Of a stretch of 64,000 bases of DNA, positions 11,152 through 61,318 are shown piece after piece. This DNA is from Heloderma charlesbogerti (lineage: Eukaryota > Chordata > Lepidosauria > Squamata > Helodermatidae), in the NCBI GenBank assembly GCA_026122225.1, contig JANEZZ010000806.1:310001-374000 (forward strand), in the 5' to 3' direction. The notes below the pieces were generated by a model. The model was not told the DNA's origin. It made no database searches and saw nothing but the letters and a program-made list of their open reading frames with translations. How positions within the stretch are numbered: the stretch's first letter is position 1; each line of letters opens with the position of its first letter. Both the position numbers and the translations under genes were made by a program.

Positions 11152-11635
11152 TAGGGATGTTAGAGAATTCCGCCACGTACTCCGATTTCTTTAGAATCCG
11201 GCCCCTCGGAGTCCATGGCGGAATGAACCACCCACCTCCGCCACCCCGTGAAGTTTCCCCGGAACACCCCGCGAAGTTTCCTACCTGCCACCAGCTGGGT
11301 CCGGTCCGTCCACTGCTGTCCTGCAGAAGCAAATGGCGTGCGGCATAGTGTACGCCATTTGCATCCCTGCTCTTTGCCATGATAGGCTATGTAAATTTTT
11401 ACGTAGCCTATCATGGCAAAGAGAAGGGATGCAAATGGCGTCCGCTATGCCAGACACCATTTGCATCTGTAGACCGGCAGTGGACGGAGGTCTGGCTGCG
11501 GATGGACCTGGCCGGTGGCTCTGCAGACTTGCCGTGGAGCAGAGCTGGCCAGGGAGGATTCCAGGGGGAGGGAGGGATCACCTCCCCCCCGCGGACCCCC
11601 CCAGCAGACTGGTGACTGGATTTCGTACACCCCTA
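11152..11635 (+). mobile_element. Palindromic hAT-like element, copy A
   Basis: It starts TAGGGATGTTAGAGAATTCC and ends TTTCGTACACCCCTA, with a perfect 8-bp duplication ATAATTTT (11144-11151 and 11636-11643). The core (about 11353-11440) is a nested palindrome: CCATTTGCATCCCTGCTCTT, then CATGATAGGCTATG, then the mirror image through GCAAATGG. This is the shortest intact copy, with one TACGTA-type palindrome. The left subterminal region carries CAGGTAGG on the minus strand, where other copies have a consensus splice donor. There is no transposase; it would depend on an autonomous hAT elsewhere. Confidence 0.85.
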
Positions 11636-11643
11636 ATAATTTT

Positions 11644-11690
11644 TATTTACCTCAGTAGTATTCCCAGTTAAGAAATATTCTTTGTATGGT
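11644..11690 (+). mobile_element. MIR continuation after element A
   Basis: TATTTACCTCAGTAG follows the duplicated ATAATTTT and resumes the MIR core, placing A's insertion after the MIR. The 3' boundary is vague. Confidence 0.5.
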
Positions 11691-11960
11691 ACAAGGGAGG
11701 GGAGGAAATTTCTGTACTTCTATAAATGACTAAAGTTGAAGTCAAGACTATTCTGTCTCCTGGCCTACACTTGAAGCTTGCTGGGAACAGTAGCAGCTAT
11801 CACTCCTATCTGCTTTGCAGGGCACATTGGTGCTATGACAGAGCAGAGTGTGAGGCTTAGCAGGAGAACGGCCTACAAAGTAAAAGCTCACCCCAGAGTT
11901 CTTGCACTATCAAGTGAAATCTTGCCTTTGCCTCGACTTCTGTACTTCCCATGCTCATTC

Positions 11961-58470: not shown

Positions 58471-59083
58471 AGGGTAATGGATTCTGATGGATTCCAGAGG
58501 GCTCTGGGGGATTTTCTTGCTGGTATGGCTGGTGCTCCATCAAAGCCCAGGTTGCTCTGTGGAATGCAGAGATGACTCGGGCGGTTGACACGATCACGCC
58601 CAAGCACCTTCTCCCTCTGAGCACAGCCTGGCCAGCTCCTTGGTATACACCTGAGCTGAGGGCAATGAAGGGGAGGGGAGACAGCTAGAACGCAGGTGGA
58701 GGAAAACTCGTGCTGAGTCTGACCGAACACAGGTTAGAGCTCATTATAGAGTCTACTCTGTGGTGGTGAGGGTGGCAGAGAGACAGTTCTTCTCCACCAG
58801 CTTTGCATCTTCTCAGTATCGTCTAGTGGAGCTTTTCCAAGTGGTTTGTGGCCTGTTACATTCTGGGCCAGGGAGAGAGACTGTGGAACCCTTGGTTGCA
58901 TGCTGTGACGAGTCTGCATGGCACTTTGAAGATAAAGTCGCTCAGATTCGTCATGAATTGGACACCACGATTAATGCAGTTCCATTGGTAGAAGTGTTCA
59001 GAGCACCATCTGGTCCAGTTTTATTGAATGAGTTTCAGTTATTGAGGCCTGAGGATGTGGACAAGGTGCTTGGCCAAGTCTGA

Positions 59084-59920
59084 TTGACCACTTGTGTGTT
59101 TGACCCTTGCCCTTCATGGCTTATTACATCAAACAAAGAGGGGATGTCCGGCTGGGTCCAGGAGGTTGTAAATTCCTCCTTGAGAGAGGGAGTGGTGCCG
59201 GCCTCTTTAAAAGAGGCAGTAATCAGACCACTCCTGAAAAAGCCTAACCTGGACCCAGAGGATGTTAACAATTATAGGCCAGTGGCCAACATCCCCTTCC
59301 TGGGCAAGGTGCTTGAGCGGGTGGTTGCAGGACAGCTCCAGGCACTCTTGAATGAAACAGATTATCTAGATCCATTTCAGTCGGGCTTCAGGCCTGGTTT
59401 TGGAATGGAAACTGCCTTAGTCGCCCTGTGGGATGACCTCTGCCAGGAGAGGGACAGGGGGACTGTGACCCTGTTGATTCTCCTGGACCTCTCAGCGGCT
59501 TTCGATACCATGGACCATGGTATCCTTCTGGATAGGTTGTCTGGGTTGGGAGTTGGAGGCACTGCACTGCAGTGGTTCTGCTCCTACTTGGATGGCCAAT
59601 TCCAGAAGGTGGTGCTGGGGGATTATTGCTCTGTGCCATGGCAATTATGCCATGGGGTTCCACAGGGCTCTATTTTATCCCCCATACTGTTTAACATCTA
59701 CATGAAACCTCTGGGGGAGGCTATCCCGAGGTGTGGGCTGAGGTGCCATCAATATGCGGATGACACCCAGCTCTACCTCTCTTTCTCATCAAACCCAGGT
59801 GAGGCAGTGGCTGTTCTGAATCAGTGCCTGGGCACGGTAATGGGCTGGATGGGGGCCAATAAACTGAAACTCAATCCAGACAAGATGGAGGTACTGTTAG
59901 TGGGTGGTTCGTCTACCTAG
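59084..59920 (+). pseudogene. CR1 ORF2 reverse-transcriptase domain
   Basis: A 278-codon open frame with the full RT core. YRPVANIPFLGKVLERVVAG is the pre-RT block; FQSGFRPGFGMETALVALWD follows. LLILLDLSAAFDTMDHGILL is motif A; CHGVPQGSILSPILFNIYM is motif B. HQYADDTQLYLSFSS is the intact YADD active site, and NKLKLNPDKMEVLLVG follows. It ends at a TAG at 59918. CR1 sequence continues in broken frames: LGVLLDPELSLEAQMNSVAQ and YQLRPYLDRDSLATVIHALM at 59984-60247, and LHWLPVHFWARFKVLVLTFK at 60257-60459. Confidence 0.9.
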
Positions 59921-60459
59921 CTAGGTGATATTCAACCTGTTCTGGAGGGGGTTGCACTCCCCCTTAAGGATCAGGTTCGTAGTTTGGGGGTGCTCTTGGA
60001 CCCAGAACTGTCACTTGAGGCACAGATGAACTCAGTGGCACAGAGCACTTTTTATCAGCTTAGGCTGGTATACCAGCTACGCCCTTATCTGGACAGAGAT
60101 AGCCTAGCTACAGTTATCCATGCTCTGATGACTTCTCATCTGGATTACTGCAATGCATTATATGTAGGGCTGCCTTTGAAAACGGTCCGGAAACTTCAGC
60201 TGGTCCAAAATAGGGCAGCAAGTTTGTTAACAGGGACTGGCCAATGAGCTCATATTATGCCAATACTTTTCCAGCTGCACTGGCTACCAGTCCATTTCTG
60301 GGCCCGATTCAAAGTGCTGGTATTAACATTCAAAGCCCTTAACGGCTTGGGGCCAGGTTATCGGAAGGATTGCCTCCTCCCATATGTGCCTGCCCGGACC
60401 TTAAGATCATCCTCAGTGGCCCTTCGTACTTCCTGCCAAAGAAAGTGTGGCGGGTGGCT

Positions 60460-61318
60460 TAGGGATGTCAGAGAATTCCGCCATGGAACTCGGTGAGGCT
60501 GAATGCCAGTGCATTCGGCCCCCTGAAATCTGTGGCGGAACAAAGCCCCCCCCCAAAATGGGCCCGGAACGGAGCACCTACCTGCTGCCGTCTGCTCTGA
60601 CTTGCGAATGGCGGTGGCTACGGCGGCCGCCATTTGCTTCTTCCATGTATCCGTGATAGGTTACGTAAATACTTATGTAGCCTATCACAGCTAACGCAGG
60701 GAAGCCATTTGTGTCCCTGCGGAAGCCGTGATAGGCTACGTAAGTATTTACATAGCCTATCACGGCAAAACTAAGGGAACGCAAATGGTGGCAGCTACGG
60801 CGGTCGCCATTTGCGTTCCCTTTTTTTTCTGTTTTAGCCTATGTAAATATTTACGTAGGCTATTACGGCCAAAAAAAAAAAAAAAAAGGAACGCAAATGG
60901 AGTAGTGGCCACCATTTGCGTTCCTTTTGTTGTTGCTGCTGTAATAGCCTATGTAAATATTGACGTAGGCTAAAACAGCAAAAAAAAAAGGGAACACAAA
61001 TGGCGGCCGCCGTAGCCACCGCCATTTGCGTTCGCTGTTTGTTTGTTTTTTGCCGTGATAGGCTACGTAAATATTTAAGTAGCCTATCACGACAAAATAC
61101 AGGGACGCAAATGGCGGCGGCTACAGCCGCCGCCATTTGCGTCCCTGCAGGATGCCCAGCGGCTGGATGTCTGGCTGCGGGCGGCCCCGGCTGGTGGCTC
61201 TGCAGAATCTCCGCGGAGCTTGAGCCGGCTGGAGAAAATTGGGGGGGAGGGACAGAGCGCCTCCCCCCCACCACGAATGTCACCCTTCGAAAAGGAAAGT
61301 GACTTTCGTACATCCCTA
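60460..61318 (+). mobile_element. Palindromic hAT-like element, copy I, inserted in CR1
   Basis: It starts TAGGGATGTCAGAGAATTCC and ends TGACTTTCGTACATCCCTA. Flanks GGGTGGCT (60452-60459) and GGGAGGAC (61319-61326) match at only five of eight positions, yet CR1 coding sequence resumes exactly after it. The core alternates TACGTA palindromes (60653-60688, 60728-60763, about 60833, about 60940, 61055-61090) with GCAAATGG palindromes. The palindrome at 61100-61147 pairs at 23 of 24 positions. The left minus-strand motif is CAGGTAGGT. The right motif has decayed to AGGAAAGT. Confidence 0.9.

Follow-up and report, generated by a model that had tools for sequence, protein, structure and literature searches.

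A GC-rich family of probable nonautonomous hAT elements with nested palindromic interiors

The stretch of DNA analysed here, a window of 64 kb, contains eleven related copies of a repeat family, designated A to K, within positions 11152–61318. The initial annotation had described eleven related copies of a GC-rich family, and both points are borne out: in BLASTN comparisons at an E value of 1e-5 every copy is matched by at least three of the others, and the GC content is 0.554 inside the copies as against 0.419 in the window outside them. Pairwise divergence, taken from the longest alignments, runs from about 9% to about 32%, with D and E 91% identical and J and K 68% identical; the apparent subgroups are D/E/F/G, B/H and A/J/K. 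Both ends are kept in seven of the eleven copies (A, B, D, F, G, J and K) rather than in the eight counted originally, and a single end is present in C, E, H and I. Three copies, E, G and I, lie in reverse orientation. The complete copies are 484–964 bp long if B is counted without an LTR-like insert of 530 bp. The features of the family and of this insert are as follows.

11152–11635, plus strand: copy A, complete, 484 bp; 8-bp duplication ATAATTTT; interior palindrome of 184 bp, 86%
11961–13325, plus strand: copy B, complete, 1365 bp including the 530-bp LTR-like insert; duplication GCTCATTC; interior palindrome of 286 bp, 80%
12772–13301, no strand assigned: LTR-like insert of 530 bp in copy B, foreign to the family; ends TGTCA...TGACA, 5-bp flanks GTAAG/GTAAA
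15141–15463, plus strand: copy C, without left end and without interior palindromes; left edge approximate
15548–16511, plus strand: copy D, complete, 964 bp; duplication ATCCTTCC
15795–16291, no strand assigned: palindrome of 497 bp that occupies the copy D interior; identity to its own reverse complement 90%
16315–16434, plus strand: GC-rich direct repeats of 41 bp on the right-hand side of copy D
27125–27556, minus strand: copy E, truncated at its far (left) end, about 4 nt from a P palindrome centre
40191–41025, plus strand: copy F, complete, 835 bp; duplication CTCAGAAT
42019–42613, minus strand: copy G, complete, 595 bp; duplication CGTTCACT; interior palindrome of 135 bp, 91%
45005–45486, plus strand: copy H, truncated on the left about 6 nt past a Q palindrome centre; left boundary approximate
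45534–46248, plus strand: copy J, complete, 715 bp; duplication GCTTTCTG/GCCTTCTG, 7/8
45791–46065: array of 94-bp period in copy J
55240–55702, minus strand: copy I, without right end; interior palindrome of 354 bp, 79%; low edge approximate
60460–61318, plus strand: copy K, complete, 859 bp; weak duplication GGGTGGCT/GGGAGGAC, 5/8; interior palindrome of 412 bp, 78%

The insert in copy B is read from its sequence as a putative solo LTR; no second copy of it is present in the window. Frame 12437–13084, the one scanned frame that spans a copy interior, runs into this insert and contains no Pfam family or domain. Four of the ten gaps between copies are shorter than 1 kb, but 1,399 of 20,000 random placements were clustered at least as strongly, so that this clustering is not significant. 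Further occurrences of the end motif, at 37, 1835, 3096, 4624 and 24080, were rejected as copies by eye, their flanks and adjoining sequence being unlike the family.

Other features are dispersed through the window. A second, unrelated family of palindromic repeats (AGGGTGCAATCCTATGCA...) occurs at 3919–4060, 14756–14886 and 44941–45003; two of these palindromes are whole, and the third is a half that stops at its own centre beside copy H. Of the 20 frames scanned against Pfam, five match models of LINE-type reverse transcriptase or endonuclease, and two of these five are above the Pfam cut-off. Such frames lie at 25700–26446, 50242–50577 and 57558–59917, some below the cut-off; the matches are presumably BovB-like and CR1-like, which would make the host a squamate. 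A tandem repeat with a period of 146 bp and 1.8 copies occupies 42803–43068. Across the window Rfam gave no matches at the gathering score and ARAGORN, run with bacterial settings, no tRNAs. The exact core-palindrome pattern had no match in viral contigs, nor another exact pattern in genome contigs, both of them unlikely places for an animal repeat.

The copies have ends in common, as had been proposed. These are TAGGGATG and a common variant TAGGGGTG, together with TAGGGAAG at the left of D. The terminal inverted repeats are short, the two ends of a copy matching over the first 5–9 bp: the match extends for 8–9 bp in B, F and K, whereas in A, D, G and J the first mismatch follows after 5 bp. 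The 8-bp flanking duplications that the annotation gave for these seven copies hold for six of them, since the flanks agree at 8/8 positions in A, B, D, F and G and at 7/8 in J, but at only 5/8 in K. Among 200,000 random placements an 8/8 match arose four times and a match of exactly 5/8 arose 5,359 times; the duplication at K is therefore weak. At the other lengths between 4 and 10 bp, no complete duplication was found in any of the seven. Within the window, searches for related empty sites of these copies gave no match across a junction. The duplications differ at one of 48 positions over the six pairs without K and at four of 56 over all seven. Set against the divergence between copies, these few differences indicate that much of that divergence probably lies among source lineages and is not decay after insertion.

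Target duplications of 8 bp are a printed feature of hAT elements (PMC3942097), and their terminal inverted repeats are given as 5–27 bp (PMC3517528) or 10–25 bp (PMC3942097), so that those found here are at the short end of the printed ranges. Furthermore, TAGGGATG is identical to the first 8 bp of the terminal repeat of Ac/Ds, whose end is printed as C/TAGGGATGAAA (PMC3260210). The 8-bp duplications and Ac-like ends argue that the hAT classification is probably right. The assignment is one of structure, since no hAT domain appeared in the 20 frames scanned against Pfam, from a total of 139 stop-to-stop frames of at least 80 aa in the window. The nonautonomous hAT family first proposed is well supported by these ends and duplications, but neither a transposase nor a partner element was seen in the scanned frames (20/139). 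The duplication motif of the Ac group, which we take to be nTnnnnAn, fits one of the seven duplications, a small sample. That of the Buster group, nnnTAnnn (PMC3517528), fits none of this same small sample, and no hAT subgroup is therefore supported.

The interiors of the copies are rich in palindromes. Forty palindrome centres with a score of at least 13 lie in the 7,538 bp of the copies, compared with ten in the 56,462 bp outside. In the window GTGATAGGCTACGTAAAT occurs exactly nine times and GCAAATGGCGGC exactly ten times, always inside copies. Two classes of motif pair head to head, P (GATAGGCTACGTAAAT) and Q (GACGCAAATGGCGGC); presumably there is a YY1-like core in Q and a TACGTA core in P. 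Fuzzy matching identifies 32 P and 21 Q palindromes, none of them in C; each class includes one or more poor or shifted matches (I at 290, H at 58). The alternation of P and Q described in the initial annotation is clear in J, nearly so in K and partial in A, B, H and I. Some P palindromes of D, E, F and G form doublets, spaced by about 58 bp, with no recognisable Q between them. Alternation of this sort is expected of one short unit repeated in alternating orientation, the two types of junction giving the two palindromes.

The earlier picture of the interior as an array of hairpins is correct as far as the hairpins go but incomplete, because these are nested in larger palindromes and neighbouring P palindromes are often mirror images of each other. 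Self-complementary spans of 92–497 bp are found in ten of the eleven copies. The longest is the single palindrome that makes up the interior of D, and others measure 353 bp in J (78%), 162 bp in H (80%), 100 bp in E (88%) and 92 bp in F (85%); in C no large palindrome was detected at an E value of 1e-8. Folded as RNA, the D palindrome forms a single hairpin of −418.4 kcal/mol, with a z score of −42.6 relative to 100 shuffles averaging −137.5 kcal/mol (sd 6.6).

Large inverted repeats of this kind are reminiscent of foldback elements, and another superfamily with duplications of 7–9 bp (P/Galileo foldback, Mutator or Merlin) might be considered. Galileo, of the P superfamily, has large inverted repeats, internal tandem repeats and strong variation in copy length, as does the present family, and a few of its copies show 8-bp duplications (PMC4168063). 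However, the inverted repeats of Galileo are terminal and its duplications are mostly of 7 bp with the consensus GTATTAC (PMC4168063). Here the palindromes are internal and stop short of the ends, the ends match each other over only about 5–9 bp and equal those of Ac/Ds, and the duplications are exactly 8 bp in five of seven cases, without a GTATTAC-like consensus. We regard membership of such a superfamily as very improbable indeed.

How the interior arose can be addressed by comparing palindrome arms and neighbouring palindromes. If the hairpins were functional, selected as binding sites for transposase or host factors or as RNA hairpins, each palindrome should be kept as a pair of matched arms. 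The far greater density of palindromes inside the copies than outside would accord with this, as would the cores presumed in Q and P. Nevertheless, P arms are no closer to their own partners than to the remaining P arms in that copy: permutation within copies did as well in 2707 of 5000 cases (2980 for the core alone). Q arms are slightly closer to their own partners over the core, where 160 of 5000 permutations are as good, but this modest signal weakens to 536 of 5000 over the whole length. Permutation across all copies gives stronger signals (53 of 5000 for P, 0 of 5000 for Q), which largely reflect differences between copies. Maintenance of hairpins arm by arm is thus mostly not found by permutation. 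Moreover, P neighbours are often far better mirror matches than a palindrome's own arms, for example in J. Selection on functional hairpins is, in our estimation, unlikely.

The mirror-image relation is evident when neighbouring P palindromes are compared. The inverted match is the better one in 15 of 22 pairs and the direct match in four (two in B, one each in D and J), with three ties. A sign test on the P pairs gives p = 0.019, although related copies are not independent. Among the sharpest pairs, two in J have 1 and 5 mismatches of 56 when inverted, compared with 15 and 17 when direct; the corresponding values are 5 and 16 for a pair in D and 6 and 18 for one in G. Neighbouring Q palindromes divide four to four with one tie, the distance cut-off leaving out three more distant pairs (D, I, K), so that the support for mirror images comes from P alone. 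Taken together, the P mirror images and the scarcity of arm-by-arm maintenance favour repeated inverted duplication over selection on each hairpin, and we conclude that the interior was probably built in this way.

It could also be supposed that the interior is unrelated filler, a palindromic repeat of minisatellite type captured by an ordinary hAT element. Maize Ds2 carries unrelated filler between Ac ends (PMC3260210), and the interiors of J and K score as tandem arrays, with periods of 94 and 111 bp. Yet outside the copies the window contains no exact P or Q motif, only scattered weak matches, and the motifs are common to ten of the eleven copies; any capture must therefore be older than the spread of the family. 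We consider captured filler quite unlikely.

Under repeated inverted duplication, a short P–Q unit, which in the copies recurs in alternating orientation and is doubled once more into larger palindromes, would probably have grown by successive inverted duplications, for instance through strand switches made at hairpins while DNA is being replicated or repaired. In yeast, template switching between inverted repeats has been reported (PMC8604942, PMC10766183). The interior would also have been cut back by deletions. Two of the four truncated copies end near palindrome centres, at the positions given above for E and H, and hairpin centres may be involved in the loss of sequence too.

Between the palindromes and the termini lie subterminal motifs. 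CTTACC or CCTACC is found near the left in eight of the eleven copies, at 114–131 bp from the end in the seven complete copies and 103 bp from the truncated edge of C. E and H are truncated there, and I keeps its left end but without the motif. The complement of this motif lies 23–25 bp from the right end in nine of the eleven copies, exactly (GGTAAG) in C, D, E, F, G, H and J and in degenerate form in A and K; in B it is displaced to 560 bp by the insert, and in I this end is missing. The loose patterns also have a few other matches, in C, D, F, G and J and in the insert of B. The right-hand part of B, D, E, F, G and H contains 41-bp GC-rich direct repeats, and C a 42-bp repeat. In Ac, subterminal AAACGG repeats bind the transposase (PMC3260210), and by analogy the subterminal repeats of this family are candidate transposase sites. 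A hAT transposase encoded elsewhere would recognise the 8-bp Ac-type ends and might also recognise the CTTACC-type repeats, and cut-and-paste movement would leave the 8-bp target duplications seen at the copies. For the interior, no coding role was found.

The copies are also rich in CpG. The observed/expected ratio is 0.91 in copies and 0.22 outside, ranging in single copies from 0.65 (A) to 1.06 (E), and among 212 windows of 500 bp taken outside, a single one is above 0.7. The high ratio could stem from recent insertion or from protection against methylation. The motif [AC]AGGTAAG, which closely resembles the consensus of splice donors, has 11 occurrences in six copies, against five in 57,013 bp outside; in 300 runs with resampled copies the mean was 0.5 and the maximum 3. 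It is present at both ends of B, C, D, F and G and at the right end of H, and its exact form is missing from A, E, I, J and K. All 11 motifs point outward relative to the orientation of the copy. On the strength of these outward motifs the family might be seen as a mobile two-way promoter and first-exon module, in which the nested palindrome would be a CpG island kept unmethylated by factors binding the Q (YY1-like) and P sites, and strong outward donors near both ends would splice transcripts begun internally into the host sequence on either side. We hold this to be distinctly unlikely. Since the copies are related, and the left and right motifs resemble one inverted subterminal repeat, the donor-like motif may be merely a transposase site.

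Our preferred reading, which we consider likely, is that the family is a nonautonomous DNA transposon of the hAT kind with an interior that has grown by inverted duplication. A nonautonomous hAT element is a known kind of element, and the family may already be catalogued under a library name. To our knowledge, the nested internal palindrome is unusual for a hAT element. The family resembles maize Ac/Ds (Ds1, Ds2 and Ds-like elements) in the first 8 bp of the terminal repeat, the 8-bp duplications, the short nonautonomous copies and the presence of subterminal repeats (PMC3260210), the comparison of sequence having covered the end. It is unlike Ac/Ds in that the subterminal repeats of the latter are AAACGG hexamers and Ds interiors are described, in the excerpts of that paper, as filler or Ac remnants and not as nested palindromes (PMC3260210); the word 'palindrom' has no occurrence in it. 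The Drosophila hAT MITEs, Mar and those derived from BuT2, are likewise nonautonomous with short terminal repeats and 8-bp duplications (PMC3517528, PMC3942097). Mar differs in ending with CAG(G/A)GGTAGGC and in its duplications, nnnTAnnn (PMC3517528), a pattern shared by 0/7 here, and the Mar paper has no occurrence of 'palindrom' either. MITEs are usually short, noncoding, high in copy number and AT-rich inside (PMC3942097); the present copies are short but GC- and CpG-rich, and their copy number is known only as 11 in 64 kb. A nested-palindrome architecture of this sort is not described in the literature searched, which comprised titles, abstract openings and excerpts of open-licence papers (including PMC2874221).

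If the layout holds genome-wide, the noncoding body of a hAT element would have grown by repeated inverted duplication to a palindrome of about 500 bp while still transposing. The family would then be a natural system in which to study how long palindromes are created, shortened and tolerated by cells, and it might supply its host with CpG islands, hairpin RNAs or outward splice sites.
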